DNA of 64,000 nucleotides from Gimesia aquarii (lineage in GTDB: Bacteria > Planctomycetota > Planctomycetia > Planctomycetales > Planctomycetaceae), in contig NZ_CP037422.1 of NCBI RefSeq assembly GCF_007748175.1, positions 5,968,334-6,032,333 on the forward strand, in the 5' to 3' direction. Of the stretch, positions 1,823-23,531 are shown in pieces. Numbering within the stretch: the stretch's first letter is position 1; every line of letters starts with the position of its first letter. The notes under the pieces were generated by a model. The model saw only the letters and a list, made by a program, of their open reading frames with translations, was not told the DNA's origin and searched no databases. The position numbers were made by a program, and so were the translations under genes.

Positions 1823-2251
1823 TTGGCACCTTTATTGTTTTGAGACATGACAGTTAGGATGCATTAATCTATCTGACCACACAGAACTGTGCTCAAAAAT
1901 ACACACTGTCAATCAAAACACAAGATACAGAACTAATGCTCACTTGTCAAAACTTAGATTAGTTCAACAAAATTAGACAATCAAATATCCTTCCAGCAAT
2001 TTGGGGGAGAATTAGAAGTGTTTCAGTTGCTGAGAAGCTTATTAAACTTATCCCGAGCTATTTTGATCTCAAACCGTTTTCAACACAAAAACTAGATCGA
2101 GTAAATCGATTCCCATCTTTACTTCACCTCAAACACAACCCCCAAATGTACCTTCTTCTAAAAAAATGACCGGGTAAAAATAATTTCCCGGTCACTTACC
2201 TAGGTATCAGTTCAAACCCGAATACTGACTTTAATTAGAAATGATACTAGC
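1823..2251. other. Intergenic region between TPR gene and PIN gene
   Basis: No convincing ORF. AT-rich. It holds the first copy of the island palindrome (2167-2194), which lies beyond the 3' end of the PIN gene. The promoter of the TPR gene should lie between 1830 and 2160, but I see no clear -35/-10 pair. Confidence 0.6.
2167..2194. repeat. Island palindrome copy 1
   Basis: TGACCGGG / CCCGGTCA stem, preceded by an A-run. Leftmost visible copy; separates the TPR unit from the PIN/methyltransferase unit. Confidence 0.85.
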
Positions 2252-3295
2252 TCAGTCATCCTTAAAGAGTGAGCCCTGTTCGAACTGTTCATTAACGTGA
2301 GACTTAGGTTCGCTAGGTTTATTTGCTTTTCGCCTATTCAAAAGTGACCACGAAATATCTTTACACATTAAATAGACTCCATGTTTAATAGCATATTGAA
2401 TCTGAATTGCATCGATGGCTTTCGTGTAAGGGAGCTTGTCAATAGTTGGTTCGGTTAATTCATTTTTTTTAAAGTTCCAAATCCTATATTCTTTTTGTAC
2501 TTTAATTTCCTCCCATATTTTATTGAGCTCATCCTTTTCACTTTTTTTTAATGTAGAGTCACTTTTCTTTTGATAGCTTATTTTCGAATTCGGTAAAGGC
2601 CATCCTCCAAAAGCTATTTTCAGTTCAGAATCTGTTGCTTCACTGAGATTAATCACTTCAGGATAAATTTCATTGTTCCATTTAATTCCGAGTTTTTTTG
2701 CATTACTGGTAATACCTAGCTCTTCTGCTTTTTCATGTGATAGTTTTTTTGCCAATTTTGTAACTTTAGCCATTCTTGAATCGCCAGTAACGAGAATTAC
2801 TGAATCCTCTCCAAGACGGCTTGTAAGGTGAGTAGCCATTCCGATAATAACGCAGTCAGTTGCTCCCATCATGATGGTTTTATTACCTTCAGATTCATCA
2901 TTGAAATCGCAATTCACTGGTGAAATAACGCTAGACATCAGGGCGTGTTTAGGTTCATGCTCTAATTGTTCTAATACTCCGCTATTAACCATACTAAATA
3001 AAGTATCTCTTATTTCTTCGTAGTCATCTTGAGTTAGCAATATCGACGGGTCTGATCGAAATTCCCCCTTCCAAGATGCAAATCGATACTTATCAATAAT
3101 ACCTAATGTTTCAGCAATACAAATTGCCGGAGTATAAAGCTTTATACGAGGCCAATTTGACTTCATAACCGCTGCAATCAAATTATTACTTCGCGGGACT
3201 CTTTCTTGGGCTTTTGTGGATTTTTTGTACAAAAAATCTGAAAGTATGTTTGCGTCTAAAACAACATGTAATACTGAATCTGGCATATTTTTCAC
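2252..3295 (-). CDS. PIN-domain protein (putative nuclease)
   Basis: 347 residues. The N-terminal half has the layout of a PIN nuclease: VVLDANILSDF with Asp14, a Glu in an AICIAETLGI-like segment (Glu62), GATDCVIIGMA with Asp147, and VILVTGD with Asp172. These acidic residues are where PIN families bind metal. A charged linker follows, and the C-terminal third contains a second PIN-like pair of motifs, KAIDAIQIQYAI (Asp295) and YLMCKD (Asp313), suggesting a partial duplication. The start is GTG at 3295 with poor SD; ATG at 3286 is an alternative. It is divergent from the methyltransferase at 3428, with a 132-bp shared promoter region, and both sit between palindromes 1 and 2. PIN proteins are usually RNases or toxins; here it may act with the methyltransferase as one defence unit (inference). 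Confidence 0.65.
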   Translation of the reverse strand: MKNMPDSVLHVVLDANILSDFLYKKSTKAQERVPRSNNLIAAVMKSNWPRIKLYTPAICIAETLGIIDKYRFASWKGEFRSDPSILLTQDDYEEIRDTLFSMVNSGVLEQLEHEPKHALMSSVISPVNCDFNDESEGNKTIMMGATDCVIIGMATHLTSRLGEDSVILVTGDSRMAKVTKLAKKLSHEKAEELGITSNAKKLGIKWNNEIYPEVINLSEATDSELKIAFGGWPLPNSKISYQKKSDSTLKKSEKDELNKIWEEIKVQKEYRIWNFKKNELTEPTIDKLPYTKAIDAIQIQYAIKHGVYLMCKDISWSLLNRRKANKPSEPKSHVNEQFEQGSLFKDD

Positions 3296-3427
3296 ATAAT
3301 TAGAAAGAGTTGAAGATGTTCAGTTATTAAAAATATTTCTTATAAGGTCTATTATTAAAAAAATTCTCTTGCGCTTTCTGTGATCTAGAGATATTATAGG
3401 TTATCCACTAGAGAACAAGGATACATC

Positions 3428-5077
3428 ATGACAAAATGGACTGACAAACTCTACCTACAAGAATGTAATAATGGGCTTAAGAAATATAAGAACAAGATAG
3501 ATTTAATCTTTGCTGATCCCCCATATAACATAGGATTTTCCTATGACGTATATGATGACAATAAGGAATGCAGTGAGTATTTGAATTGGTCAGAACAATG
3601 GATTAAATCAAGTATCAATGCACTTAAACCCACCGGGGCACTCTGGATCGCAATTGGAGATGAATATGTTGCTGAGCTCAAGATGATCGCCCAAAAAAAT
3701 GGATTACACTTAAGGAATTGGGTGATCTGGTATTATACTTTTGGCGTTCACTGCAATAAAAAATTTGGAAGATCTCATACGCATCTACTTTATTTTGTAA
3801 AAGACCCAAACAAGTTCACTTTTAATGATGATGATATTAGAGTTCCATCTGCTCGGCAGCTCATATACAACGACAAAAGGGCAAATTCATCAGGCAAAGT
3901 TCCAGACAATACATGGATTCTTAGGCCACAAGATGCGTCTGAAACATTTAACCACGATCAAGATACTTGGTATTTCGCACGTATAGCTGGCACTTTTAAA
4001 GAGCGAGCTGGCTTTCACGGTTGCCAAATGCCGGAACAACTATTGGGAAGAATTATTCGTAGTTGTTCTAATCCAGATGATGTTGTATTAGACCCGTTCT
4101 CTGGATCGGGAAGTACGCTTTGTGTTGCCAAAAAACTTGGTAGACGTTGGCTGGGATTTGATATCTCTCCAGAATACATCCAGCTTGCACAAGCTCGTAT
4201 CGATTCTGTTCGATCTGGAGATCCTTTGGAGGGTCCTGAAGATCCTCTTAAAAGTGCACCATCTGTTGCTGTTAAGAAAAGAAAAAATGAGGGAATAAAT
4301 AATGAATTAATCATTAAAGCATTCAAGAAAGTTTCAAAAGGGAACTCCGTAGACAAAATTATTGCAGATCCAGTCTTAAATGCTTCGTTTGTTGATGAAT
4401 GTAGCCTACTAAAAGTGCGTGGACGACCTAGTGAATGGAATCTTACTCTTATGGGGATGAGAAAAACTGGCCACTTCCCAGAGATAAAAGCAACTAAAAG
4501 AGTACAAATGCCATTTCAGAAAATGGATCCGTTCGAGTATGCCAGTGAAATTGCATTACGTCGCATGTTAGATATGGGTTATCCTAGTTTGGATCACATT
4601 CTTTGTGATCCGTATGCTGCATCACGCTTTGACAGCTATGCTAGAAGCTTAGCTCCGGGTTTTCGCTCTTTTGATTACCGATGGGCTGCTTTAAGAATTA
4701 GAAAAGAAGCTAGAGCGTGGAAAAATTCATCAGAGCAATTGCCTAAAAATAAGCTTCGAAAAAAAATCAATTCTTTTGATTTAGCAGAAATAAGTTTGAA
4801 AAAAATCCCTGATTCTCCGGCCGTATATGCATTAAAAAGAGGAAGTGACACATCTCTTCCAGTTTATATTGGAGAAACATGGAACTTATTAGATCGAGTA
4901 GAACGTACCTTATCAACGATGTCCGCGCTGAACCAATTTGTACCAAACTCAGGTGATTGGGTTTTAGAGCATTATGAAAGCAGGAACTCAGATCATATTG
5001 AAAGAAGAGGACTTCAATCATATCTAATAGGCCAAACTAGACCTAAGATGAATTTTTTAGAGTTAGCAGCTTTATGA
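3428..5077 (+). CDS. DNA methyltransferase fused to GIY-YIG domain
   Basis: 549 residues. Motif IV DPPY is at 30-33 and the SAM-binding DPFSGSGST at 222-230, so the catalytic motif precedes the FxGxG motif: the beta-class order of N6-adenine/N4-cytosine methyltransferases. Residues about 285-440 form a middle region of unknown role (possibly target recognition). The last ~87 residues look like a GIY-YIG domain: SPAVYAL (463-469), VYIGET (YIG 480-482), an Arg at about 490 and a Glu at about 525 in an HIERR segment, ending in a PKMNF-like tail. This Tyr/Tyr/Arg/Glu set is the catalytic pattern of GIY-YIG nucleases. Methylation and cleavage could therefore reside in one chain. The ATG has an AAGG-type SD. 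The 3' end overlaps the next ORF by 4 bp. The gene is AT-rich compared with the chromosome to the right, consistent with transfer. Confidence 0.8.
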   Translation: MTKWTDKLYLQECNNGLKKYKNKIDLIFADPPYNIGFSYDVYDDNKECSEYLNWSEQWIKSSINALKPTGALWIAIGDEYVAELKMIAQKNGLHLRNWVIWYYTFGVHCNKKFGRSHTHLLYFVKDPNKFTFNDDDIRVPSARQLIYNDKRANSSGKVPDNTWILRPQDASETFNHDQDTWYFARIAGTFKERAGFHGCQMPEQLLGRIIRSCSNPDDVVLDPFSGSGSTLCVAKKLGRRWLGFDISPEYIQLAQARIDSVRSGDPLEGPEDPLKSAPSVAVKKRKNEGINNELIIKAFKKVSKGNSVDKIIADPVLNASFVDECSLLKVRGRPSEWNLTLMGMRKTGHFPEIKATKRVQMPFQKMDPFEYASEIALRRMLDMGYPSLDHILCDPYAASRFDSYARSLAPGFRSFDYRWAALRIRKEARAWKNSSEQLPKNKLRKKINSFDLAEISLKKIPDSPAVYALKRGSDTSLPVYIGETWNLLDRVERTLSTMSALNQFVPNSGDWVLEHYESRNSDHIERRGLQSYLIGQTRPKMNFLELAAL

Positions 5078-5447: not shown

Positions 5448-5475
5448 TGACCGGTAAAACATCGTTTATCGGTCA
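5448..5475. repeat. Island palindrome copy 2
   Basis: TGACCGGTAAA / TTTATCGGTCA. Lies 14 bp after the stop of the 119-aa gene and beyond the 3' end of the J-domain gene (convergent). A-rich before it. Confidence 0.85.
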
Positions 5476-5556
5476 TATCACAGTGATCCCACAGAAGAAT
5501 AATGTCCCGGAAATATAATTTACTATTCACTTCAGTTGGCACTTTGCCATTTCAGT

Positions 5557-6033
5557 TTATGCAAATATTATGTAGCCATTAATCATAAGGATTAAGGCAC
5601 ACAGAACACTAGCACTAGTTGTCAGGACGATAAAGATGAGCAAACACCCTATAGCTGAACTTGGAACATTATGAGCTGACAATAATCTGTCCAAGTAGGT
5701 CTTGGCTTCTTTGAACCCTGTTCCATGTGCCTGGCGATACATTTTTAGTGCTGCAATCTTTCCGCTGCGCTTGTACACGATCAAAATCTGGTAATCAAAA
5801 GGGGTAAGTTCGGGAGTTCCAGAGCGAAGAGTTTCGTCGTATGCCATACGCGATGCTGGATCGGAGAGGATATTGAATGCTTCGGTAATCTGTTTGAACT
5901 TGGCCGTTCCTTCGAAGCTTGGATCACGATCAGGATGGTACTTTGCGGATAATGTCTTGTAAGCGGCTTTAATAATAATATCACTGGCATCAGGTTGAAT
6001 TTGCAAGATTTCGTAATGGGACGTGTTGGTCAT
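5557..6033 (-). CDS. J-domain protein with L7/L12-like segment and C-terminal membrane helix
   Basis: 158 residues. Residues 5-68 are a J domain with the HPD motif at 33-35, the site that stimulates Hsp70 ATPase. Residues ~85-117 (GKIAALKMYRQAHGTGFKEA...) resemble the C-terminal domain of ribosomal protein L7/L12, a helix-helix module also found in other small bacterial proteins. A hydrophobic segment at ~125-155 is a probable membrane anchor. No Gly/Phe or zinc region, so not DnaJ itself; probably a membrane-tethered Hsp70 co-chaperone. It lies downstream, in the same direction, of the 176-aa gene and a degenerate attC-like site (6102-6180), so it may be the second gene of a two-gene unit. 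Confidence 0.8.
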   Translation of the reverse strand: MTNTSHYEILQIQPDASDIIIKAAYKTLSAKYHPDRDPSFEGTAKFKQITEAFNILSDPASRMAYDETLRSGTPELTPFDYQILIVYKRSGKIAALKMYRQAHGTGFKEAKTYLDRLLSAHNVPSSAIGCLLIFIVLTTSASVLCALILMINGYIIFA

Positions 6034-6180: not shown

Positions 6181-6183
6181 CAC

Positions 6184-6732: not shown

Positions 6733-6900
6733 CTTAAGGCCGTTATGACATAATTTGAATTACTCTGAATTATTTCGGTATAATCAATTAACGGCAGTGC
6801 TAATGAAATTTTGTTTAACCAGAAATGAAGTGTCAAGAGAAAATTGAGGAAGTTGCTATAAACAAAGAAATAAGTTTGAATGAATCAAATCGCACCATGA
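6733..6900 (-). repeat. Type A leader, copy 1
   Basis: About 165 bp upstream of the 176-aa gene, similar along its length to 9930-10093 and to the reverse complement of 17652-17817. Shared blocks include TCAAGAGAAAATTGAGGAAG, TTGCTAT and AATTCAAATTATGTC. Most diverged of the three copies. Confidence 0.7.
6808..6836 (-). promoter_or_regulatory. Promoter of type A leader, copy 1
   Basis: On the minus strand TTGACA, 17-bp spacer, CAAAAT. Same position and spacing as in the other two type A leaders. Confidence 0.65.
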
Positions 6901-6923: not shown

Positions 6924-6952
6924 ATGGGTGGGAAATTACAGTTACCCGGTCA
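6924..6952. repeat. Island palindrome copy 3 (imperfect)
   Basis: Left arm ATGGGTGGGAAA, right arm TTACCCGGTCA. The preceding CTTTCTAAAATTAAAAATG flank is shared with copy 20. Confidence 0.65.
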
Positions 6953-7031
6953 ATCTTGGAAAACCCCTCAAAGTGAAACGGCGTCTCGCCATCATCCACG
7001 TGGTTCGGTATGAGATTCGAAGTTTGAGTGA

Positions 7032-7499
7032 TCATTTTTTCGGTCCCTCTTCGATCACAGATAACCGCTGCAATGTCTGCTCAATCATTGTTTGCATTTC
7101 TTTCACTTTTGACTGGCATTTTTTATAGAGATGACGCTGCATCTCCTTTGGTAGTGTCAACATCTGGTCGCGGGCTTCGATCACACATTCCGCGGCAAAC
7201 AACTCGTATTCTTCCCGACTGATCAGCTTCTCATCTGCGATTAAATCTTTACGCTCCAGGTCCTTCCGCTTCAATTTCTCCTGAAGCAGCTTCTCTTTTT
7301 TGAGTTCTTCGTTGAGCTTCTGGGATTCTCTGTCTGCTTTCTCATCGCGATAAGATGCCACCCACGCATCACACTCAGAAACATCAAAGACTCTCTTTCG
7401 TTGAGTTCCACTAACCGGAAGTCCTTTTTTGATCCAGTTCTGAATCGTCTTGTCGCTAACGTCCCATCGTTCGGCAGCAGCAGAAAACCAATGACACAA
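7032..7499 (-). CDS. Phage terminase small subunit-like protein
   Basis: 155 residues from a TTG start at 7499 with GGAG nine bases upstream. Residues 5-28 (AAAERWDVSDKTIQNWIKKG) form an Nu1-type winged-helix/HTH DNA-recognition motif, followed by a long charged coiled coil (~45-150), the domain order of phage terminase small subunits that bind pac/cos DNA. A lysine/serine/threonine-rich N-terminal extension is encoded just upstream in another frame (7618-7520, TTG start) and would join after a run of six A residues near 7520; see findings. No large terminase, portal or capsid gene follows, so this is a fragment of a phage packaging module or a satellite-type lone TerS. Confidence 0.65.
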   Translation of the reverse strand: MCHWFSAAAERWDVSDKTIQNWIKKGLPVSGTQRKRVFDVSECDAWVASYRDEKADRESQKLNEELKKEKLLQEKLKRKDLERKDLIADEKLISREEYELFAAECVIEARDQMLTLPKEMQRHLYKKCQSKVKEMQTMIEQTLQRLSVIEEGPKK

Positions 7500-7618
7500 T
7501 TGACCGGCTCCGTTTTTTGCATTGGAGCCTGTTTTTTAGCTGTTTTTTTCGTTTTTGACGTGGTGCGTTTTGAAGTGGCTCTTTGGGATGATCGCTTTGC
7601 TGATGTTTTGCCCCTCAA
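7500..7618 (-). pseudogene. Out-of-frame N-terminal extension of the terminase-like gene
   Basis: From a TTG at 7618 the first ~35 codons give a strongly basic segment (MRGKTSAKRSSQ..., many K, R, S, T) typical of a DNA-binding tail. A -1 shift at the A6 run joins it to the HTH coding frame through residues NGAGQLCHWF. The alternative reading beyond the run looks like non-coding translation. Either the gene is frameshifted or the tail is not translated. Confidence 0.4.
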
Positions 7619-7681
7619 TTTAATAGGAAGAAGAAGAAGTCACTTAAAATTTCGTTTTGAAACCAAAAAAGTGCGATTTAA

Positions 7682-7718
7682 GCACCGCGCACGGTGCCGG
7701 CCCCCCGCGGGAGGACCC
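7682..7718. other. GC-rich palindromic patch upstream of the terminase gene (cos-like)
   Basis: A perfect palindrome GCACCG-CGCA-CGGTGC (7682-7697) is followed by a G/C-only stretch with GCGGGAGGACCC (7707-7718), inside otherwise AT-rich DNA, about 65-100 bp before the terminase-like ORF. Packaging sites commonly lie just upstream of terS. Assignment as cos is inference from position and composition. Confidence 0.4.
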
Positions 7719-7807
7719 GAGAATTTTTTTAGCCAGGCTTGTACTCGGCTGACTGATCTTAAAAGCTTACCGAATCGTGTGGAAACGATTTGGTTTTCTT
7801 CTTTCCC

Positions 7808-8011
7808 TCAATCAAAATCATTATTTTGTTGTTCAGATTCCTGTTCGAGTTGCTCGATGTACCTGGTGCAAGTTTCATTGGTCGACTGATCAAACTCGTC
7901 CAGGTATGACAGCTCATTCAAAGCCTTGTCGAGATCTTCATCAGGCTGAATGATGGGATCAGCTCCCGGTAATTTATCAGCTGGACGATCATTTGAGCTA
8001 TGGCTTTTCAT
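7808..8011 (-). CDS. Small acidic protein in the phage-like segment
   Basis: 67 residues, very acidic with a glutamine/glutamate-rich C-terminus, no known domain. Its ATG (8011) overlaps the stop of a 55-codon ORF (8008-8175) by ATGA. Probably part of the same small phage-derived operon as the terminase-like gene. Confidence 0.45.
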   Translation of the reverse strand: MKSHSSNDRPADKLPGADPIIQPDEDLDKALNELSYLDEFDQSTNETCTRYIEQLEQESEQQNNDFD

Positions 8012-8175
8012 ATTTGATTCCTTTCAACAATTTCAATCCGAGATTGATCAGAGCAAATAAGGCAACGAAGACTACGAAACTTGTTCCCGTTGAGGCCCCT
8101 CTTGCCAATGTGGAACGTATTCATTAAAGAAAAGAGCGATCCATCATCGGGAGCTTGTGCACCTTGATCGATCAT
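8008..8175 (-). CDS. Possible 55-aa protein overlapping the 67-aa gene
   Basis: ATG at 8175 gives 55 residues ending in TGA that overlaps the next ATG (ATGA). Contains a CLIC pair. SD weak. Supported mainly by the coupled overlap. Confidence 0.35.
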   Translation of the reverse strand: MIDQGAQAPDDGSLFSLMNTFHIGKRGLNGNKFRSLRCLICSDQSRIEIVERNQI

Positions 8176-8445
8176 GTCTGGAATCCACGTAGGGAAAATA
8201 CAACTGCCAGAAATGTAGTGGGATAGGTTGTCTTACCATCAAGCGGTTTGAGAGGGAGTTTCTTCGAGTATTGATTCGGCTTCCTTGCCTGATTAAGAAA
8301 TGATATAAAGAGCGGTAATGCATCCATGCCCTACCACTCTCTGAAAATGACTGGCGTTTCATGTGATCCATCATTCTACACCAGTTTCTTTTCGCAGTTA
8401 CAATTTCGCATTAACTCGTTTAAAAAAGTCAAGGGCAGTTGGATT

Positions 8446-8640
8446 ATGAGAAGAAAAAAGACAATTACGATCGAGCTTGATCGGGATGACTGGTGGCCGC
8501 TATGTCGCTACGCGGCAAAAGAGAAGATCTCGATTCGAGGGCTCGCAAGAAAAACGTTGATGCCATTGATCGACGATCTGAAAAGACGGTATCCACGGCA
8601 ACCAGTCAATGAATCCCCGTCGATCGAAGATGTTCATTAA
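8446..8640 (+). CDS. Small ribbon-helix-helix-like protein
   Basis: 64 residues from ATG 8446, preceded by AAGGG eleven bases upstream. The layout is a basic start, a short beta strand (KTITIELDRDDW) and two helices (REGLARK-like and DDLKRRY), the size and pattern of a CopG/Arc ribbon-helix-helix DNA-binding protein. Opposite in orientation to the terminase-like gene. Longer in-frame starts up to 8326 exist but lack an SD. Confidence 0.45.
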   Translation: MRRKKTITIELDRDDWWPLCRYAAKEKISIRGLARKTLMPLIDDLKRRYPRQPVNESPSIEDVH

Positions 8641-8745
8641 TTGTACATTGATTTCGCCAATACGATCGCATTCGGCCCTGAGAGACATCAATTAGGGTTT
8701 AAATGAAATCGTATCGTATGATTGGGGCCACCCATTAATGAAAAG

Positions 8746-8772
8746 TGTCTGGTCATAGCTATTACCCGGTCA
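8746..8772. repeat. Island palindrome copy 4
   Basis: TGTCTGGTCA / TTACCCGGTCA. Its right flank (AAAGGGTGTCTTTTAAAACG) is shared with copies 5 and 6. Confidence 0.8.
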
Positions 8773-9927: not shown

Positions 9928-9934
9928 ACCTAAC
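9928..9934 (-). other. Cassette boundary box at the 5' end of the SieB-like gene
   Basis: Minus strand GTTAGGT (GTTRRRY), 15 bp before the ATG, at the exact junction between the conserved type A leader and unique gene sequence. Position and sequence match the crossover point of an integron cassette. Confidence 0.55.
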
Positions 9935-10093
9935 TCGAATTAGGCTAAATATTTTTGATGTAACCCATTAAGAGTAGAACGAGTTATAATTCTGTTTAAC
10001 TAAGGATGAATTGTCAACAGAATATAGAGTAAGTTGCTATGATCAAAGGAACTAGGTTGAGTGACTCGAATCGGGAAAAGTGGAATTCTGAAC
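9930..10093 (-). repeat. Type A leader, copy 2
   Basis: Matches 17652-17817 (inverted) closely, for example CTCGAATCGGGAAAAG and GGAATTCTGAAC, and 6733-6900 more loosely. Ends at the cassette boundary box. Confidence 0.8.
9989..10017 (-). promoter_or_regulatory. Promoter of type A leader, copy 2
   Basis: Minus strand TTGACA, 17-bp spacer, CAGAAT; drives the SieB-like gene about 75 bp downstream. Confidence 0.7.
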
Positions 10094-10192: not shown

Positions 10193-10220
10193 TGACCGGG
10201 TAACAGCTAATACCCGGACA
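10193..10220. repeat. Island palindrome copy 5
   Basis: TGACCGGGTAA / ATACCCGGACA with an A-run before and T5 after, the pattern of a terminator usable in both directions. The right flank is shared with copy 6 for ~45 bp. Confidence 0.9.
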
Positions 10221-10356: not shown

Positions 10357-11412
10357 ATGACAATGAAGATTCTTGCAATCGATCTAGGAAAGTTTAAGTC
10401 GGTCGCCTGTCGGTACATTACCGAAACCGGCAAGTCGGATTTTCTGATAGTGCAAACGCATGTGTTCTCTTTCGAGCAACTGTTAAGTAAGGAAAGTCCC
10501 GATCTGGTCGTCATCGAGACCTGCTCGATTGCAGGTTGGGTGCACGACTTGTGCTGTCACCATGGCGTGAGGTGCGACGTCGCCAATCCCAGCAACGAGG
10601 CCTGGAAGTTCAAAAACATCAAACGCAAAACGGATCGTGATGATGCACTCAAGCTGGCTCAACTAGCAGCATTGGAACAACTCCCAACAGTTTATGTCCC
10701 AACCCCAGAGATACGACAGCGGCGAGCGCTGCTGAAGTATCGTCAGTCATTGATTACTCGTTGGATTGCGATCCAGAATCACTTGCGAGCTCTCTTTCAA
10801 CAACAAGGAGTTCTACTTGACCGTGGCCATCGTGCGTGGACAGAAACGGGCTTGCTAGCAATCGAACAACATGTGAAACCATTAGAGCAATGTGGTCCGG
10901 ATGAACTTTGGTGTGGTGAAGTGGCCCTCGAACTCCAGGCGTTCAAGAGTATCTGCCAACAACTGCAGCAAGTGGAACGCAAGCTGGACGTATTTGCAAA
11001 GACGGACGCCAAAGTGAAACTGTTGCGGACCATCCCCGGCGTTGGACGTTGTACGGCCGAGGTCGTCGTTGCATACCTTGATGATCCACAGCGTTTCACC
11101 AACGGCCGTCAGGTCTCCGCCTATGCAGGACTAGTTCCCAAACAGTTTCAATCCGGTGAAACCGACCGTCGTGGACGGATTACTCGCCGAGGACCATCTT
11201 TGTTACGAAAGATGCTGGTTGAAGCGGGATGGATCTTGTTGCGGCACAACCTCTGGGCTCAGCGGTTGGTGAAGAGGCTTTCGCGTGGTCAGAAGACGCG
11301 CAGAAAACAGGCGATCGTGGCTTTGGCGCGAAAACTACTCGTGCGTTGTTGGGCAATGCTACGAGACGGCACGCCTTGGTGTGATTTTCTACCGCTGCCA
11401 GCAACCACCTGA
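10357..11412 (+). CDS. IS110-family transposase
   Basis: 351 residues, full length for the family. The N-terminal RuvC-like DEDD domain is visible: ILAIDLGK (first Asp), DLVVIETC (Glu), then KTDRDDALKLAQ with the paired Asp. The C-terminal transposase_20 part has RTIPGVGRCTAEVVVAYL, VSAYAGLVP and RRGPSLLRKMLVEAGW, including the region of the conserved serine. AAGGAG precedes the start by only three bases for ATG 10357 and by nine for ATG 10363, so 10363 may be the true start. No frameshift or stop: probably active. GC is higher than in the surrounding island. Confidence 0.92.
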   Translation: MTMKILAIDLGKFKSVACRYITETGKSDFLIVQTHVFSFEQLLSKESPDLVVIETCSIAGWVHDLCCHHGVRCDVANPSNEAWKFKNIKRKTDRDDALKLAQLAALEQLPTVYVPTPEIRQRRALLKYRQSLITRWIAIQNHLRALFQQQGVLLDRGHRAWTETGLLAIEQHVKPLEQCGPDELWCGEVALELQAFKSICQQLQQVERKLDVFAKTDAKVKLLRTIPGVGRCTAEVVVAYLDDPQRFTNGRQVSAYAGLVPKQFQSGETDRRGRITRRGPSLLRKMLVEAGWILLRHNLWAQRLVKRLSRGQKTRRKQAIVALARKLLVRCWAMLRDGTPWCDFLPLPATT

Positions 11413-12573: not shown

Positions 12574-12601
12574 TGATCGGGTAATCTCTATTACCCGGTC
12601 A
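12574..12601. repeat. Island palindrome copy 6
   Basis: TGATCGGGTAA / TTACCCGGTCA, followed by TTATTTTA and the shared right flank. Confidence 0.9.
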
Positions 12602-12681: not shown

Positions 12682-12776
12682 GAGTAACGCTTGTTTTCAC
12701 CGAGTGGCGGTGGTCGATATTGATTTCAGGAGCGACGGCGCCCGCCGCTCAGTGTGTTTGTATCTCATTGTTAGTC
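12682..12776 (-). other. attC site after the DUF4062 gene (best preserved)
   Basis: 95 bp. On the minus strand it starts GACTAAC and ends GCGTTACTC. The inner arms are clearly complementary (CACTGAGCGGCGG near one end, CCGCCACTCGGTG near the other), separated by a variable middle. The DUF4062 ORF runs into it and stops inside it (TGA at 12749), common for cassette genes. All expected parts (R'', L'', VTS, L', R') are present. Confidence 0.7.
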
Positions 12777-13819
12777 GACCTTCGCACGCAGAGATTCACA
12801 AGGGCCGTCCCTGTGTTATCTGCGCAGATTGCAACCGCTCGGCCAAGTGGTATTTGTCGCCTGTCGCCTAGCTGAGTGAGACTCCAGAAATAGTTAGCGT
12901 AGGTCTTATCAAGCTGAACATCAATTATTATTAGATTAACTGCTCGAAACAACGTGCCAATGTCCTTTAGGAAACGTTGTTCGAGCGATGTACTCTCCGG
13001 CATGTTGGGATGTAGCAACTTTAGAATATCCGCAACGTGGTCTTCGACCTCATACTCGTCGAGCGGTGCCATCAAATGCGGTGCGAGCATAATAAAGACG
13101 TCGCGGAGATTGAATGCTACTTTCCACGGAATTCGATCTTTTGAGTCAGATGAGTCCTTCGCTCTACCAGTACCTTCAATGACGTAGTCCTGCGGCAGAT
13201 GGCTATTCACCTTTTCGAATGATTCATTAGAGCGTGTCAGCTTCTCCAGTTGTTGTTTGAGTTCTCTGTTCTCAACCCGAATGCGGTTGTTATCTAACAG
13301 TAGTTCCTCAGTTGTAACGGAAGATGCACTTATCCATCCTTTCGATGGATACATCTTGATCGTCTTCTGCATGCTCAGCGCAACAAGACCAATCAGTTGC
13401 TCTGTGCTATTCCAGAACTTTACGAGTCGCCCATTTGCTACCTGCTGGCGAAACTCATCCAGCTTTGTCTTCAGTTCCGGGTCCGCTTCGACAAACTTTG
13501 CGGGCAGTTCCTCTGGTGATTGATGAAGGAGCGCGACAATTCGCAGCTTCTTGGACTTTGCATATTTGTATTCTTTCTCTGTAAAGCTGATGCCTTCGTT
13601 TGTAACCGACCCGTAACGCCCACCGATAATCAGAAGGTAGTAGTCGCAGTCGTCGATGATCCGCTTGATGAACTGCCATTGCTCCTCGTCTGCAGCGGGA
13701 AATAGCTCCATTCCAGCGGGAATGCAGTCCATTTCCATTAACGCCTGCATGACCTGCTGGCGTTCATCCTTCAGGTCGGTGTACATGGAACTCACAAATA
13801 CTTGATATCGCTTTTCCAT
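12749..13819 (-). CDS. DUF4062 domain protein
   Basis: 356 residues. Residues 1-160 are a typical DUF4062 domain: YQVFVSSMYTDLKDERQQV at the start, a PAGMELFPAADEEQW segment, then YYLLIIGGRYGS and ISFTEKEYKYA. The fold is TIR/nucleoside-binding-like, and the domain occurs in prokaryotic conflict systems. A coiled coil (~170-205, VENRELKQQLEKL) and an uncharacterised C-terminal domain (~225-345) follow, the latter perhaps sensing. The gene lies directly downstream of the zinc-ribbon gene in the same direction, 65 bp apart across a partial attC, so both may use the promoter at 14412. The C-terminus is encoded within the attC site at 12682-12776. Confidence 0.8.
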   Translation of the reverse strand: MEKRYQVFVSSMYTDLKDERQQVMQALMEMDCIPAGMELFPAADEEQWQFIKRIIDDCDYYLLIIGGRYGSVTNEGISFTEKEYKYAKSKKLRIVALLHQSPEELPAKFVEADPELKTKLDEFRQQVANGRLVKFWNSTEQLIGLVALSMQKTIKMYPSKGWISASSVTTEELLLDNNRIRVENRELKQQLEKLTRSNESFEKVNSHLPQDYVIEGTGRAKDSSDSKDRIPWKVAFNLRDVFIMLAPHLMAPLDEYEVEDHVADILKLLHPNMPESTSLEQRFLKDIGTLFRAVNLIIIDVQLDKTYANYFWSLTQLGDRRQIPLGRAVAICADNTGTALVNLCVRRSTNNEIQTH

Positions 13820-14732: not shown

Positions 14733-14760
14733 TGACCGGGTAACTCTTATTACCCGGTCA
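14733..14760. repeat. Island palindrome copy 7
   Basis: TGACCGGGTAA / TTACCCGGTCA, perfect 11-bp arms, AAAAG before and ATTGTTTT after: terminator-like in both directions. Confidence 0.92.
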
Positions 14761-14860: not shown

Positions 14861-15715
14861 TTGGAACATCAACTCCGCTGGCTTCGTGATGCGAAACTTT
14901 ATGCGGCAAGTTATGGACTCCTATCAAAAGAGCTTATCCAGGGAACACTCGTAATAACAGAAAAGCATATTAGAATGAGTTTTGACCGCGCTGTTTCCCT
15001 CGCTCGATATAATTGGCCGCTTTATCTCACCTGCTTTCTAGGGGCAGCCGTTGGATTCACTATTTGGACGATCCAACTAGTTCCGTCGCCCATCAGATAC
15101 TTAGGTTTCCTTGGTGCCCTTGTTGCAACCTGGTACGCAATCTCATCTTTCGTAGCGTTTTACGTCATGTTTGACCGTTCCGATTTTCTTTCCGGTGAAT
15201 GGCTTACTCATTGTGTCGAACAGTCTCCACAAACATGTGTTCAACTGAGTGTCTGCGTCGAAGAAACTACACTCCCAATTTCTAAAGTATTCCCCAGTAC
15301 CGATTACATAGAATTGGACCTATTTGACAAATCTTTTATGACCGAACCGGCAATTGCCAGAGCAAAGCAGAATTCGGGTGATTCACCGTCCATCGCCGCA
15401 AAACCAGATGCACTTCCGCTGTCAGATAACACTTCTGAAATGACTGTGGTAACTCTCGCTGCCCACGAAATCCGTGACGCGTCACAGCGCGAAGTACTTT
15501 TCCGAGAGCTATCACGAATCACCGCACCAAGAGGTCGACTGATTGTTGCCGAACACCTCCGCAACCTTTCTGCAGCTGCAGCTTTTGGGCCGGGATTTTT
15601 CCATTTCTACCCGCGGTCCACATGGACGACTCTGGCACAAAAAACAGAACTCCGGATAGAATCAGAATTCGACATCACGCCATTTTTTCATGTATTTGTG
15701 TTGCGTCATGCGTGA
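14861..15715 (+). CDS. Membrane-anchored SAM-dependent methyltransferase
   Basis: 284 residues. Two membrane helices near ~48-70 and ~78-102 precede a class I methyltransferase part. Recognisable motifs of this family: TEPAIARAK, ALPLSDN, TLAAHEIRDASQREVLF, RGRLIVAEHLRN and GPGFFHFYPRSTW. The usual glycine-rich SAM loop is replaced by the family's own QLSVCVEETTLP segment. The substrate is unknown. The only in-frame start after the upstream stop is TTG 14861, with no SD. The unit lies alone between palindromes 7 and 8. Confidence 0.7.
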   Translation: MEHQLRWLRDAKLYAASYGLLSKELIQGTLVITEKHIRMSFDRAVSLARYNWPLYLTCFLGAAVGFTIWTIQLVPSPIRYLGFLGALVATWYAISSFVAFYVMFDRSDFLSGEWLTHCVEQSPQTCVQLSVCVEETTLPISKVFPSTDYIELDLFDKSFMTEPAIARAKQNSGDSPSIAAKPDALPLSDNTSEMTVVTLAAHEIRDASQREVLFRELSRITAPRGRLIVAEHLRNLSAAAAFGPGFFHFYPRSTWTTLAQKTELRIESEFDITPFFHVFVLRHA

Positions 15716-15799: not shown

Positions 15800-15827
15800 T
15801 GACTTGGTAAAGCACGTTGCCCGGTCA
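15800..15827. repeat. Island palindrome copy 8
   Basis: TGACTTGGTAA / TTGCCCGGTCA, 84 bp after the methyltransferase stop. Confidence 0.8.
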
Positions 15828-15864: not shown

Positions 15865-15892
15865 TGTCTGGTAAATACCTATTACCCAGACA
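15865..15892. repeat. Island palindrome copy 9
   Basis: TGTCTGGTAAA / TTACCCAGACA, A-run before. Copies 8 and 9 are back to back, one for each of two convergent genes. Confidence 0.88.
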
Positions 15893-17575: not shown

Positions 17576-17603
17576 TGACCGGGTAATGTGTATTACCCGG
17601 ACA
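17576..17603. repeat. Island palindrome copy 10
   Basis: TGACCGGGTAA / TTACCCGGACA. Confidence 0.9.
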
Positions 17604-17727
17604 CTAATTTAAATCATACTGATAAGGGTGTGAGAATGAGTTTAGATCACCGTTCAGAATTCCGCTTTTCCCGATTCGAGTCATTCAACCTAATTCCGAG
17701 GATCATAGCGACTTCCTCAATTTTCGC

Positions 17728-17756
17728 TTGACTATTCATCCCTGTTTAAACAGTAT
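17728..17756 (+). promoter_or_regulatory. Promoter of type A leader, copy 3
   Basis: TTGACT, 17-bp spacer, CAGTAT. Confidence 0.7.
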
Positions 17757-17810
17757 TTGATTAAGTTCTACCCTTAATGGGTTATTCTGAAATAATTCAG
17801 TCTAATTCAA

Positions 17811-17817
17811 GTTAGCC
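17811..17817 (+). other. Cassette boundary box at the 5' end of the 217-aa gene
   Basis: GTTAGCC, exact complement of GGCTAAC at 18483-18489 that contains the gene's stop codon. Confidence 0.6.
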
Positions 17818-18568: not shown

Positions 18569-18596
18569 TGTCCGGTAAATAACCATTTACCGGACA
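18569..18596. repeat. Island palindrome copy 11
   Basis: TGTCCGGTAAA / TTTACCGGACA, perfect arms, A5 before, TTGTTGTTTT after. Confidence 0.92.
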
Positions 18597-18611
18597 CTTG
18601 TTGTTTTCTGA

Positions 18612-18639
18612 TCTCCGGGTAACTACCGTTACCCAGACA
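18612..18639. repeat. Island palindrome copy 12
   Basis: TCTCCGGGTAA / TTACCCAGACA, directly adjoining the stop codon of the 114-aa gene. Confidence 0.85.
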
Positions 18640-19028: not shown

Positions 19029-19056
19029 TGTCCGAGTAACATTTATTTACCGGACA
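19029..19056. repeat. Island palindrome copy 13
   Basis: TGTCCGAGTAA / TTTACCGGACA. The TIR gene reads into it and takes its stop codon from it. Confidence 0.88.
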
Positions 19057-19871
19057 CTATCCAGGTGGGGCGTGTTACTTGCGGCATTCAAATGATTAAA
19101 GTGCTCTTGCATAAGTTTATGTGCTCTAATGGGTGCAACACCGTTCTTTCTGAAAAAATGTAGAATATCACCTTTAGTCATGCCATCCTTCGGTGACTTT
19201 GTGGACAACAAGAATAATTCTTTTAATAATTCTTCTTCAAATACATTTAGAGATTCCTGCATATCTGGATCATCTCGTATTTCACGACTCTCTAAACGTC
19301 TAAGCCGCGATTGCATACCTCTCGTATTCTCCAAAATCTCTACAAGAATGTCACCATCCGGTCGAGGTGGAATGGTTTCTGTTTGTGGGTTATCTTCAAT
19401 GATTTTTGCAAACGATTTTTCAAATTGCCCCCAGTATGTATCGAACACTTGATCCAGAACAATATCATCGAGCGATTCATTTGAAAGGCTTTTATTTAAA
19501 GTTCGAACCAACTCCCAAACACTGTCACGATTGGGTATCGTATGATTGAACTGTGCCAAAGGGTCTACAATGTCAGATGGTTCTAAGTCTATCAAAAACG
19601 TACAAACTCGACTTGACGACAACCCCTTTGCAAGAGCTCCCGACTCAAATAAGATCCAAGGGCGATTTTGATTCTCTTTAGTCAAGCAGACAATTCCGAC
19701 AGCAGTATCCTTTAATTGGTCATGTATTTCACTAAACCAAAGGGCTCCACGGTCAATATCACGAGTAGATAACCAAGGTCTAGTGGCTTGTAACACACAT
19801 TTAATCCAAGTTTTGAGCATCTCTGCAACGGCTCGGCTGCGATTCCCTGACCAACTGATAAAGACCTTCAT
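19047..19871 (-). CDS. TIR-domain protein
   Basis: 274 residues. Residues 1-130 are a TIR-type domain: MKVFISWSGNRSR, WLSTRDIDRGALWFSEI, GIVCLTKENQNRPWILFESGALAK. TIR proteins of bacteria commonly cleave NAD or act in nucleotide signalling during phage defence. The C-terminal half contains a coiled coil (MQSRLRRLESREI) and a small helical region (MTKGDILHFFRKNG) that may be a sensor or oligomerisation part. ATG 19871 has AGGA eight bases upstream. The last four residues (DSVR) and the stop are encoded by palindrome 13. Confidence 0.82.
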   Translation of the reverse strand: MKVFISWSGNRSRAVAEMLKTWIKCVLQATRPWLSTRDIDRGALWFSEIHDQLKDTAVGIVCLTKENQNRPWILFESGALAKGLSSSRVCTFLIDLEPSDIVDPLAQFNHTIPNRDSVWELVRTLNKSLSNESLDDIVLDQVFDTYWGQFEKSFAKIIEDNPQTETIPPRPDGDILVEILENTRGMQSRLRRLESREIRDDPDMQESLNVFEEELLKELFLLSTKSPKDGMTKGDILHFFRKNGVAPIRAHKLMQEHFNHLNAASNTPHLDSVR

Positions 19872-20029
19872 TAGAATTTCCTCGTATAGAATAATATTGC
19901 CAGAAGCATCTCTCTATTCAGGGTACACTAGAGCAATGTACTGCAACAGGGAACCGGCAAAATTTAATGAAAAATGAATGGGCAGCTATTGTTTCCCAAC
20001 CATCAACCAAGGATTCCACAAAAGAAAAG

Positions 20030-20057
20030 TGTCTGGTAAATCATTATTTACCAGACA
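20030..20057. repeat. Island palindrome copy 14
   Basis: TGTCTGGTAAA / TTTACCAGACA, perfect arms, A-run before, CTTTATT after. Confidence 0.92.
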
Positions 20058-20089
20058 CTTTATTAGTATTGAGATCTTGCCAAAGAAAG

Positions 20090-20117
20090 TGACCAGTAAA
20101 ACATCGTTACCGGGACA
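20090..20117. repeat. Island palindrome copy 15
   Basis: TGACCAGTAAA / GTTACCGGGACA; 12 bp after the stop of the pentapeptide-TIR gene. Confidence 0.82.
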
Positions 20118-20129
20118 CTTTTGCATGAT

Positions 20130-21674
20130 TTAGAGCTTTGGAATGGGATCAAGTTCTCTGCCTGAATCATTGGTTTGAAGAGCTTTAACAACTCGCTCGA
20201 ATTGGACTTCGAACTTTGTATTATCAGATTCCCAATTAGTGAAATCAGGAGCAAGACGTTCAAGAATTTGATTACATTTGGGATGTTGCCATTCTGAAAA
20301 AAGATAACCATCCAAGTTCAGTGGTATCAAAGACAAAACCTCACGTCCTCTTTGTTTGAACAGCTGCTTTTCTTTCGCAAACGCATGCTTAATCTCATCA
20401 TCAACCCAGCCACTGGTCAGTGAATGTTTTGAAGTACATAACAGTACTTTATCCCACACACGAATTCCATGATCAACACGATCGTAGATATTGTCTCCTG
20501 GTAATAGCTGATGTTCATCGAGCCAACAGCGAATTCCTCTGCCTTGCAAAGCGTCATGTAACCGACGAGCAAACGATTTATCCTCATGGCTGTAACTGAT
20601 AAAGCAGGAATAGAAATCAATCGCTGGATTTGCAAAATGGCTTGGAATGTAGGAAATAAAATCATCAGTTAAACCACAACCACGAAGAAATCTCTCTGGA
20701 ATCTTACCGTTTGATTTCATCAAGGTGTCAACACCGAGAGAACTTCGTCCTCGATGTATGACTGATTCCAAACCAATTGATTGCGATAAATCTAGATCAG
20801 TCCATCGTGTTTCCTTTGAAGAAGCATTACTCAAATTGGCCCCGCTCAAATCGGCCCAGCTCAAATCGGCCTCGCTCAAATCAACATCGCTCATGTCGGC
20901 CTTTCTCAAATCGGCCCCGCCCAAATCGGTCCGACTCAAATTGGCCCGACTCAAATTAGCATTTCTCAAATTAGTTCTCCAGTAATGAGTCCTGCTCAAA
21001 TCAGCCCCATCCAAATCGGTCCCACTCAAATTAGCCCCAATCAATTTAGCCCCGCTCATTTTGGCATGTGTTAAATTGGCATTTTCCAAATTGGCATTTT
21101 TCATTCTAACCCCGCAAAAATTGGCCCAGCCCAAAGTAGCCCCGCTCAAATCAGTACCGTTCAAATTACCCCCGGAAAAATTGGCATTGCTCAAATTGGC
21201 CCCGCTTAAATTGGCCTCACTAAAATCAATACCGCACAATATGGCCCTTACCCAACGAGCCCCGCTCAAATCGACATCGCTCATTTTGGCATTACTCAAA
21301 TCGGCACTCTCCAAATTGGCATTAGTCAAATTAGCACTAGTCAAATTAGCATTACGCAAATTAGCATTACGCAAATTAGCATTACGCAAATTAGCATTAC
21401 GCAAATTAGCATTTTGCAAATTAGCATTACTAAAATTAGCATTACTCAAATTGGTAACTTCAAAAATGGCCTCGCTCAAATCGGCATTACTCAAATCGGC
21501 ATTACTCAAATCGGCATTACTCAAATCGGCATTACTCAAATCGGCATTACTCAAATCGGCATTACTCAAATCGGTCCGACTCAAATCTAACGTAAAATGT
21601 GGGTTCTTTTTTCTCCAATTTGTTATTGATTGAGCTCCTTTTTTGACAATTTTCACATGCGCGGGATTAGCCAC
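20130..21674 (-). CDS. Pentapeptide-repeat protein with C-terminal TIR domain
   Basis: 514 residues. After ~25 basic residues, residues ~28-295 consist of A(D/N)LS(N/G)-type pentapeptides, which fold into a right-handed quadrilateral beta helix. Residues ~355-500 are a TIR domain: YSCFISYSHEDKSF, GIRCWLDEHQLLPGD, KVLLCTSKHSL, SGWVDDEI. A beta-helix scaffold joined to a TIR effector suggests sensing or polymerisation by the repeat part and NAD-type signalling by the TIR part (inference). GTG start at 21674 with AAGGAG nine bases upstream. DNA repeats inside the gene make the pentapeptide number prone to change. Unit between palindromes 15 and 16. Confidence 0.88.
   Translation of the reverse strand: MANPAHVKIVKKGAQSITNWRKKNPHFTLDLSRTDLSNADLSNADLSNADLSNADLSNADLSNADLSEAIFEVTNLSNANFSNANLQNANLRNANLRNANLRNANLRNANLTSANLTNANLESADLSNAKMSDVDLSGARWVRAILCGIDFSEANLSGANLSNANFSGGNLNGTDLSGATLGWANFCGVRMKNANLENANLTHAKMSGAKLIGANLSGTDLDGADLSRTHYWRTNLRNANLSRANLSRTDLGGADLRKADMSDVDLSEADLSWADLSGANLSNASSKETRWTDLDLSQSIGLESVIHRGRSSLGVDTLMKSNGKIPERFLRGCGLTDDFISYIPSHFANPAIDFYSCFISYSHEDKSFARRLHDALQGRGIRCWLDEHQLLPGDNIYDRVDHGIRVWDKVLLCTSKHSLTSGWVDDEIKHAFAKEKQLFKQRGREVLSLIPLNLDGYLFSEWQHPKCNQILERLAPDFTNWESDNTKFEVQFERVVKALQTNDSGRELDPIPKL
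21355..21580 (-). repeat. In-gene tandem 15-bp repeats encoding pentapeptides
   Basis: Two arrays of identical 15-bp units: GCAAATTAGCATTAC-type at about 21355-21425 and CTCAAATCGGCATTA-type, six perfect copies, at about 21474-21575. Perfect identity at nucleotide level indicates recent slippage expansion. Confidence 0.85.
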
Positions 21675-21815
21675 TGCTGTGTCTCCTTAAAAGAATAAAT
21701 CACCAGATCCTAACCGAACCTTAGATTATGAGTGTCTGGCATCAGAAATGCAAATAAGTTTGATGTCACCAAAATTGAAACCATCGTTAAGAAGGTTAGC
21801 TGTACTGAAGAAGAA

Positions 21816-21843
21816 TGTCGGAGTAATGACTGTTACCCTGTCA
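21816..21843. repeat. Island palindrome copy 16
   Basis: TGTCGGAGTAA / TTACCCTGTCA. Supplies the TGA stop of the next minus-strand gene (21841-21843). Confidence 0.75.
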
Positions 21844-22227: not shown

Positions 22228-22259
22228 CCCATTTACCTTTCTTAATTTGATTTAAAATA

Positions 22260-22288
22260 ATGGGTGGGTAACAACGGTTTCCCAGACA
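22260..22288. repeat. Island palindrome copy 17 (imperfect)
   Basis: ATGGGTGGGTAA / TTTCCCAGACA. Left flank TTAAAATA similar to copies 3 and 20. Confidence 0.7.
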
Positions 22289-22403
22289 CTTTGTTTAATT
22301 CCAAACAACCTCGCTTTGAAGATAACTAAGATTCCTGATTACTTTTCGCCTTCAATCATTTAAACTGTGCGTGTTGGATTCCTGCAATTCCAAGGTAGTT
22401 CGC

Positions 22404-22652
22404 ATGACTGAAAGAAAAGAATCAAAATTTATTCGATTCCTAAGCTATGCAATTCCAATATTGTTAGTGATTTATGTATTGGGTGTTGGTCCTATCGCCG
22501 GAGTTATAACTCAACCTGATGGATCCGTTAATCCTGAACATAGGAGCTGGGCAATTTCTTTCTATGCTCCTCTGTTTTTTGTGGTAAAAAGTAATGCGTC
22601 ATTGGAATCTATTGTTGAAGAATACGTACAATTCTGGGTTGACATTATTTGA
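22404..22652 (+). CDS. Small membrane protein
   Basis: 82 residues from ATG 22404 (AAGG eight bases upstream); a TTG at 22371 lacks an SD. One clear membrane helix (IPILLVIYVLGVGPIAGVI) near residues 18-36 and a second weaker hydrophobic segment (FYAPLFFVV). Function unknown. Confidence 0.55.
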   Translation: MTERKESKFIRFLSYAIPILLVIYVLGVGPIAGVITQPDGSVNPEHRSWAISFYAPLFFVVKSNASLESIVEEYVQFWVDII

Positions 22653-22706
22653 ACACTTTCCCGCAAACGCTGAGAATTCGAGCTGATATGACCAGTACAT
22701 ATAAAG

Positions 22707-22734
22707 TGTCTGGTAAACAACCTTTTACCGGTCA
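22707..22734. repeat. Island palindrome copy 18
   Basis: TGTCTGGTAAA / TTTACCGGTCA. Supplies the stop codon of the minus-strand zinc-ribbon gene. Confidence 0.88.
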
Positions 22735-23151
22735 CTTACTGGCTGGAATTTCAAAACACTTTCCACTCCAAGCCATTTTTTTGATTCGTTCCAAACCAGA
22801 GACAGACCAGCGCTCTATGATCATAGAGTTGACCTTTTTCCAATCGGTCGGATAATCTGATTTCAGAGCCAGTGCATAAGTCATAGCAATCTGTCTCTGT
22901 GTGCATTTCTGTTTGATTTCGTTTTCGATGACCATTTCGACACACATAATATGGGAACTAAAACCATTAACAATTTCTTCGTCTGACCGGATATAGCCTC
23001 TTTTTCCGCATGCGGTGCAGATATTGATTAACCGATCTCCATCCTCGTGCGGTTCATAAAATGCCTGAACTGTGGGATATCCTCGATCGCATATTGGGCA
23101 ATTAATAACTTTGTCTTTTGGTGCTGGTTTCCATCCTAAATCTGTAACCAT
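22732..23151 (-). CDS. Zinc-ribbon protein of unknown function
   Basis: 139 residues from ATG 23151 (AAGGA seven bases upstream); the longer in-frame start at 23214 lies in palindrome 19 and is unlikely. CPIC (~18-21) and CTAC (~46-49) form a zinc ribbon; the rest is helical. Ends SK-stop, with the stop in palindrome 18. Confidence 0.6.
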   Translation of the reverse strand: MVTDLGWKPAPKDKVINCPICDRGYPTVQAFYEPHEDGDRLINICTACGKRGYIRSDEEIVNGFSSHIMCVEMVIENEIKQKCTQRQIAMTYALALKSDYPTDWKKVNSMIIERWSVSGLERIKKMAWSGKCFEIPASK

Positions 23152-23185
23152 TGAATTATCCTTTTCTAAAAATGATTTAAAATGT

Positions 23186-23213
23186 TGTCTGGTAAATAAC
23201 ATTTTCCCAGACA
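23186..23213. repeat. Island palindrome copy 19
   Basis: TGTCTGGTAAA / TTTCCCAGACA, one base from the stop codon of the 85-aa gene. Confidence 0.85.
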
Positions 23214-23471
23214 CTATGAAATCTGCTGGATCAAGTCGCCAAGAAATTCCTTCATATTCGCACGGAAATTCATGTCTTCTTCACCCGGCTTTTTTACTGT
23301 GATTAAAAGCCACGGCGAACCCAGGCCAGCACCACAATCCATAGAGAATTCAAGATCTTCTCCTTCCCCTGAAATCCAGTTTTGCCGTAGTCCACATTCA
23401 AGCATTCCACCTACATCAACCTGCTGAATATTGAGCTGACTTTCAAACTCGTTTATTAGTGTTGCAGTCAT
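23214..23471 (-). CDS. Small acidic protein
   Basis: 85 residues, acidic, no family recognised (immunity-protein-like size and charge, but no partner toxin seen). AAAGG about 12 bases before ATG 23471. Unit between palindromes 19 and 20. Confidence 0.5.
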   Translation of the reverse strand: MTATLINEFESQLNIQQVDVGGMLECGLRQNWISGEGEDLEFSMDCGAGLGSPWLLITVKKPGEEDMNFRANMKEFLGDLIQQIS

Positions 23472-23502
23472 TGCATGTCATTCCTTTCTAAAATTAAAAA
23501 TA

Positions 23503-23531
23503 ATGGGTGGGTAACAGTCTTTTACAAGACA
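23503..23531. repeat. Island palindrome copy 20 (degenerate), last copy
   Basis: ATGGGTGGGTAA / TTTACAAGACA. Rightmost copy; marks the border between cargo array and element backbone. Confidence 0.6.

Follow-up and report, generated by a model that had tools for sequence, protein, structure and literature searches.

A probable dif-module-like array of palindrome-bounded gene cassettes in a phage-like element of Gimesia aquarii

The window analyzed here is a 64,000 bp stretch of the Gimesia aquarii genome (contig NZ_CP037422.1, positions 5,968,334 to 6,032,333). It contains an island in which unrelated genes are separated by copies of a 28-bp palindrome. What do these palindromes do, and how was the island put together? 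An earlier note on this DNA proposed that they were terminators, recombination sites, or both. The reading favored here, with a probability of about 0.58, is a cassette array akin to dif modules, in which a tyrosine recombinase that needs matching centers would do the shuffling. The palindrome would be a two-armed recombination site, made of two inverted copies of an 11-bp binding motif around a 6-bp overlap. The interval from one site to the next would form a mobile cassette, in most cases a single gene together with the region upstream of it. Cassettes would swap between the arrays of prophages and phage-like islands of the genus when sites with an equal 6-bp center recombine. The inner arm would stay with the cassette and the outer arm would be exchanged, as in dif modules, and because the arms are alike a cassette may sit in either orientation.

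The window was scanned with the pattern CCGGGTAA-N6-TTACCCGG, allowing up to three mismatches, and shuffled windows served as the control. Twelve matches were found, 11 of them inside the island, compared to a mean of 0.11 in the shuffled windows. A covariance model, a 28-mer scan and a compiled list together gave 20 clear 28-bp copies from 2167 to 23531. The 20 palindromes first counted there were borne out, with one (8746-8772) a base short and two decayed copies (19975 and ~5503) to be added. The statement that none lay in 23.6-64 kb nearly held, the covariance model giving one weak match at 54276 (20.4 bits, E 0.03). The island start at 2167 did not hold, as the array begins 6-8 kb upstream of the window start. 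The consensus of 268 aligned sites was TGWCCGGGTAA-YRNNYR-TTACCCGGWCA, an 11-6-11 bp layout with TAA and TTA edging the center and a strongly conserved outer TG.C. Both arms are the same motif and are symmetrical. Compensatory changes had been said to keep the arms paired. In the window the arm covariation score was indeed above that of all 500 shuffles, but the effect was weak. In a set of 246 distinct sites, pairing covered 8.87 of 11 positions compared to 8.41 with shuffled arms (standard deviation 0.06), and the arms were identical in 11% of sites compared to 6%. As pairing was barely above the shuffled level, the site reads as two inverted motif copies and not as a strongly pairing-constrained stem.

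The intervals between sites move as blocks. Thirty-two stretches, each with between 1 and 33 sites and 274 in all, were compared, giving 195 intervals of 60-9000 bp with a median length of 765 bp. Homology between arrays ended at sites on both ends in L029/L030 (745 bp, 99.5%), L015/L019 (710 bp, 98.9%) and L015/L021 (1027 bp, 90%). Twenty-two interval pairs from 16 cassette families, in a selection biased toward matches ending at sites, matched over at least 80% of both lengths, and in 15 of them the two lengths differed by at most 2 bp. Outside the two bounding sites the DNA was unrelated on both sides in 13 pairs and on one side in nine; none had homology on both flanks. Five of the 17 cassette pairs of known direction were inverted relative to the element. 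The raw inter-array alignments were free of the selection bias, and among those listed many ended away from sites, chiefly in phage modules and shared upstream regions. The idea of a modular array was thereby supported. Whole site-to-site units recur in other arrays with one or both neighbors changed.

The 6-bp center mostly went with the moving unit. Recent switches were defined as site pairs with an inner flank at least 94% identical and an outer flank at most 68% identical, and 15 pairs qualified. The center was identical in ten of these and within one base in 13, compared to identity in 96 of 20,000 random pairs. The inner arm was identical in 13 of the 15 and the outer arm in three. Exact centers also recurred where no flank homology was present: site pairs from different elements had the same center in 378 of 31,765 cases compared to 89 expected under a Markov null. 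One-mismatch centers in the same pair set showed no excess (2.8% compared to 3.0%). The center ACATCG was found in 12 sites whose flanks and arms were mostly unlike. Arm identity in 362 same-center pairs was 17.9 of 22 positions compared to a background of 16.8, and it faded outward. By our own arithmetic on these pairs, linkage of the arms had dropped to roughly a third of its full value 3-4 bases from the center, or to a quarter when the ATGATG type was left out, and little remained in the outermost bases, so linkage is lost just outside the center. Since center and inner arm travel with the cassette, exact centers recur and arm linkage fades, exchange would seem to take place at the edges of the 6-bp overlap. 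This points to the behavior of Xer-type tyrosine recombinases. A recombinase of that type would be the agent and would require identical centers, exchange would proceed via cointegrates or co-infecting phages, and many of the sites would also terminate transcription.

A number of results weigh against this reading. No recombinase was tied to the sites: the integrases beside the arrays fall into two families between which no similarity was detected, and arrays L027, L029 and L030 have neither. Phage integrase was rejected as the array recombinase on these two grounds. An integron integrase (TIGR02249) was found over the curated cut-off in none of the 17 genus genomes. The host dif (ACGTCCGATAA TGTCCG TTATGTTAART), identified in 15 of these 17, scored -29.6 on the site matrix and its arms differ from the site arms. 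The residual arm linkage was significant, at 17.90 compared to a permuted maximum of 17.33. Centers were unlike in two of the 15 recent switches (L028 12411/L094 2896, and L099 6095/L105 8261, the latter reversed), and older switch pairs mostly differed in center. A looser breakpoint profile of 31 pairs, mixing old and recent switches, gave a center identity of 0.53, with conservation highest at the two middle bases of the center, and identity of the inner arm did not rise above background. The 15 switches are partly non-independent, some being the two ends of one cassette, and the pairs used in the center and arm tests overlap in sites. Direct equal-center pairs within one element should delete the intervening DNA, and such pairs were not avoided (13 direct and four inverted of 2020 pairs within elements). 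The sites also look in part like terminators. They lay closer to gene 3' ends (72 compared to 142 bp, p = 5e-10, n = 136), and the side of the T-tract followed gene direction, downstream of codirectional genes (p = 3e-7). Solitary sites at L106 7365, L107 7152 and L097 3652, between host genes in three genomes, keep identical arms, vary in center and adjoin A/T runs in a terminator-like manner.

The main rival takes up these last points. Here the palindromes would be intrinsic terminators insulating accessory phage genes, and shuffling would occur by general or phage-encoded homologous recombination at short repeats, as in the PeSL elements of T4-like phages. Those elements, attributed to Arbiol 2010 and Comeau 2014, reportedly shuffle by homology. 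We consider this explanation rather unlikely. In addition to the 3'-end bias, the T-tract bias and the solitary sites, it accounts for the folding of the sites as RNA (median -12.9 kcal/mol) and for the 137 of 263 sites with AAAA before or TTTT after them. A Gam-like protein is encoded, and cassettes share upstream modules (17652-17815 with 9930-10093, 17672-17814 with 6751-6892). Gene orientation speaks against it. In stretches with at least five sites, where genes were simple longest open reading frame calls with errors included, a site was held by 47 of 84 '++' gaps, 56 of 88 '--' gaps (103 of 172 codirectional), 33 of 51 convergent gaps and 29 of 46 divergent gaps. As sites are no scarcer in divergent gaps than in the rest, terminators alone are insufficient and the terminator features are better taken as a second role. 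Terminators as the sole account were dropped on this count, as were operators in view of the sites in convergent gaps. With freely drifting loops, any surplus of exact 6-mers should come with a surplus of one-mismatch centers, and breakpoints spread evenly over the arms should have kept the arms more closely linked than was found. The weak covariation of the arms also tells against it. Of the original alternatives, recombination sites were thus the better half, and the 3'-end and T-tract biases suggest that many sites also act as terminators.

The second rival is that these are true dif modules, with host XerC/XerD acting on the sites. At least two strong Xer-like PF00589 proteins were present in each of the seven genomes searched, and these we take to be XerC/XerD. 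The sites have the same 28-bp 11-6-11 layout and a TAA-N6-TTA core. The behavior of the centers is similar to that described in Acinetobacter (PMC13141974, PMC11705084). This explanation is nonetheless improbable, as both arms are one motif which is unlike the host XerD arm TTATGTTAART and agrees, by eye, with the host XerC arm at about five of 11 positions. Host XerC/XerD was set aside as the agent because the site arms are unlike those of host dif, although it is a possible recombinase for the sites. The chromosomal dif of the genus was located at G000:C1:3561737 (L070), near the contig midpoint.

A chromosomal integron with attC sites was judged very improbable. The locus resembles one in having a conserved platform with a tyrosine recombinase (module 1, described below) followed by a cassette array with hairpin-like sites. 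Against this stand the lack of an integron integrase over the cut-off in the 17 genomes, the presence of cassettes in both orientations and a site consensus without the attC core GTTRRRY/RYYYAAC (compared by consensus, with no attC model). Tyrosine recombinases of 298 amino acids (G012:C1:5358975, G001:C1:5012484 and others) matched the integron integrase model at the ends and not in the middle, and were multicopy in some genomes. A serine resolvase or invertase site with a 2-bp crossover, 28 bp long and presumably res-I-like with an outer TGTC, would fit the strongly conserved outer TG.C but is hardly credible, because a 2-bp overlap gives no reason for the center to behave as a 6-bp block. 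In 10 of 15 switches, as in the exact centers that recur, all six center bases are kept as one, even the two that adjoin the exchanged outer arm.

Matches to the site were concentrated in the genus. In the 7.2-Mb genome of the host, where 150 of 2132 first-look candidates were scored, matches fell in four clusters and a few weak single places. The covariance search across genomes that the earlier note had proposed was run on 59 genomes with stricter filters. At E <= 0.01 it matched 13 genomes, all within the genus of the host (13 of 17), and none of the 42 genomes outside the genus. Two of the 13 held a single match each, and at E <= 0.05 two further genus members had one weak match apiece. 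Outside the genus strict patterns were used, which would overlook most sites even in this window. They gave six stretches in a collection of genome contigs, two being contigs identical to genus genome G005 and four being single hits, one of which received no score from the site matrix. Viral contigs gave five single hits. The center TAGCTG was common to solitary sites L108 5281, L017 7952 and L129 5467, which are unlike places in two genomes.

The island is the variable cargo zone of an integrated phage-like element of ~43 kb at tRNA-Phe. A conserved module (module 1) lies at its right end and points inward. It encodes, all on the minus strand, a DUF4031 protein (23680-24354), a conserved 131-amino-acid protein (24367-24762), an O-like replication initiation protein (24843-25922), CsrA (25946-26128), a conserved 83-amino-acid protein (26165-26416) and a phage integrase of the tyrosine recombinase type with a TTG start (26838-27869). 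The O-like protein had no relative in the contig collection searched outside the genus. A 457-461-amino-acid open reading frame of module 1 was rejected as the recombinase, being a spurious frame overlying the integrase, and so was the conserved protein A5 of module 2, which by eye resembles a membrane lipoprotein. The opposite end lies left of the window in L011 and encodes a Gam-like protein and the small terminase subunit (TerS). The element is bounded by a 127-bp repeat (89%) with copies ~43 kb apart. The right copy (29106-29230) includes the 3' part of tRNA-Phe (29184-29256) and the other lies at L011 6112-6236. ARAGORN predicted no tRNA in L011, so the copy there is partial. A 359-bp stretch by the attachment repeat was also duplicated at 85% (L011 5634-6236, window 28446-29230), as if a related element had once integrated in tandem.

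Less than 1 kb separates TerS from the attachment repeat in L011, so no gene for the large terminase subunit (TerL) comes after TerS at that place. The element of the window carries genes for an integrase, an O-like protein, Gam and TerS, the remaining genes having been searched in part. In genome G002 a related element, G002_b (L018 and L047), makes up a complete prophage. It has integrase, replication and packaging genes, TerL among them, and structural genes for portal, head maturation protease, major head and tail proteins. The array sits between both phage modules in the six elements that show both (G000_A, G002_a, G002_b, G002_d, G002_e and G016_c), with additional sites beyond the packaging side in G002_e. 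The three other clusters of the host genome (L012-L014) had no module family in common. A terminase fragment had been noticed in the first reading of the window, where the phage context was otherwise overlooked, with integrase, CsrA, O-like, Gam and TerS flanking the array.

The sites of the window were each in the compiled list and found by both the covariance model and the 28-mer scan, unless stated otherwise. The first (2167-2194) reads TGACCGGGTAA.AAATAA.TTTCCCGGTCA and is followed by a gene with a weak PIN match (2252-3295, minus strand, E 0.004) and an N6/N4 DNA methyltransferase gene (3428-5077, plus strand). The site at 5448-5475 has the center ACATCG, equal to that at 20090. After a 27-bp spacer comes a decayed second site (TATCACAGTGATCCC..., 5503-5530), seen by eye and as a weak covariance-model match of 14 bits, and then a J-domain protein gene (5557-6033, minus strand). 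Beyond the site at 6925-6952 (center TTACAG) lies a cassette (6953-8745) that is a copy of phage packaging-module DNA, comprising the TerS end and the Gam region. Such cassettes were present in five arrays, the related copies lying at L016 8634-9848, L019 12971-14488, L022 1980-3654 and L024 4711-6227, and their role could be that of a packaging signal or of an interference device. The cassette ends at the site that is one base short (8746-8772; list and covariance model). The site at 10193-10220 (CAGCTA) is adjoined by an IS110-like transposase (10357-11412, plus strand, from the open reading frame list, with the family name as first given). Insertion sequences targeting pdif sites are known in Acinetobacter (PMC10132070).

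The next sites are at 12574-12601 (TCTCTA), before a DUF4062 gene (12749-13819, minus strand), and between divergent genes at 14733-14760 (CTCTTA), before a borderline methyltransferase-like gene (14861-15715, plus strand). These are followed by sites at 15800-15827 (AGCACG) and 15865-15892 (TACCTA), and by another between divergent genes at 17576-17603 (TGTGTA; list, 28-mer scan and alignments) with a ~220-bp module common to other cassettes after it. A pair with a 15-bp spacer is formed by 18569-18596 (TAACCA) and 18612-18639 (CTACCG; list and 28-mer scan). Next to the site at 19029-19056 (CATTTA) a TIR protein, PADLOC type TIR-TM, is encoded (19047-19871, minus strand). Three sites follow closely, a decayed one at 19975-20002 (list and covariance model) and those at 20030-20057 (TCATTA) and 20090-20117 (ACATCG), and then a gene with pentapeptide repeats and TIR (20130-21674, minus strand), which has a relative at L024 8485-9930. 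The remaining sites are at 21816-21843 (TGACTG), 22261-22288 (CAACGG; covariance model and 28-mer scan), 22707-22734 (CAACCT), 23186-23213 (TAACAT) and, last in the array, 23504-23531 (CAGTCT; covariance model and 28-mer scan).

The spacers of paired sites were themselves recurrent. A 15-bp spacer (TCAGGAAACAGCAAG-like) was found at window 18597-18611, L016 8591-8605, L022 10074-10088 and L024 4668-4682. A 27-bp family (TATCACAGTGATCCCATAAAAGAAAAG-like) recurred likewise; gaps below 60 bp between sites numbered 46, with 12 of exactly 27 bp. An upstream module of 140-220 bp, common to unlike genes, lies between site and gene start at window 6751-6892, 9930-10093 and 17590-17814 and also in L016, L019, L021 and L022. 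From its position it is perhaps a common promoter. Many cassette genes of the window had no family match. A survey covered 150 non-redundant cassette proteins out of 176 collected. The commonest Pfam families among those listed were TPR (4), TIR (4), SUKH-1 (3) and DUF4062 (2), and the PADLOC families listed included TIR-type proteins, up to three.

How does the array relate to known systems? Phage morons and prophage defense hotspots are accessory genes, several of them defense-like, found at a set position in the genomes of temperate phages. The array shares this placing and partly defense-like content, but it has tens of units, a common bounding site and exchange between elements with different integrase families. 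Integrons and superintegrons likewise pair a conserved platform, which has a tyrosine recombinase, with unrelated cassettes arrayed at one of its ends. They differ from the present case, in which no IntI passes the cut-off, the site lacks the attC core, cassettes sit in both orientations and the setting is that of a phage. The earlier note knew of no described system with this arrangement, which was not quite right. Close analogues exist, namely the pdif modules on Acinetobacter plasmids and, in T4-like phages, the PeSLs. PeSLs, too, are hairpins between phage genes thought to mediate modular shuffling; the present sites differ in being defined and two-armed, with recurring exact 6-bp centers and all gene orientations. 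PeSLs combine an early promoter with a terminator (PMC4503421).

The pdif (Re27) modules share the 28-bp sites with 11-bp arms and a 6-bp spacer, the accessory genes between sites, module shuffling and inversion, and the frequent presence of unlike spacers in the two sites of one module. The exchange pattern seen here resembles the spacer rule described for pdif sites of Acinetobacter (PMC13141974, PMC11705084). The differences are that the present arms are symmetrical, show no C/D alternation and are unlike the host dif, and that the arrays are borne by planctomycete prophages and phage-like islands, all of one genus, with as many as 33 sites in a stretch, pdif being found on Rep_3 plasmids. 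The confirmed and unusual feature is a phage cassette array that would act like dif modules yet lacks two defining dif-module features, the host XerC/XerD arms and the C/D alternation. Among the listings of a literature search there was no account of arrays of this kind, whether from planctomycetes or from phages, with subscription papers mostly outside its reach.

Integrons and dif modules are two known routes for single-gene shuffling by site-specific recombination, the latter having been described in Acinetobacter by the papers above (PMC13141974, PMC11705084). At somewhat under even odds, the array would represent a third natural cassette system beside them. Phages of one planctomycete genus would pool largely unknown and defense-like genes through homotypic 11-6-11 sites, with the centers as address codes, a recombinase not yet recognized and sites doubling as terminators. 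In the latter case a cassette could drop into many places in either orientation. An old question also becomes testable, namely whether hairpins that recur between the accessory genes of phages serve to end transcription or to recombine. The search for site-bounded intervals would be a simple route to new accessory and defense genes. If the reading is true, it would suggest that spacer-coded cassette shuffling arose more than once, and it would explain the way in which large cargo zones are assembled in the temperate phages of the genus.

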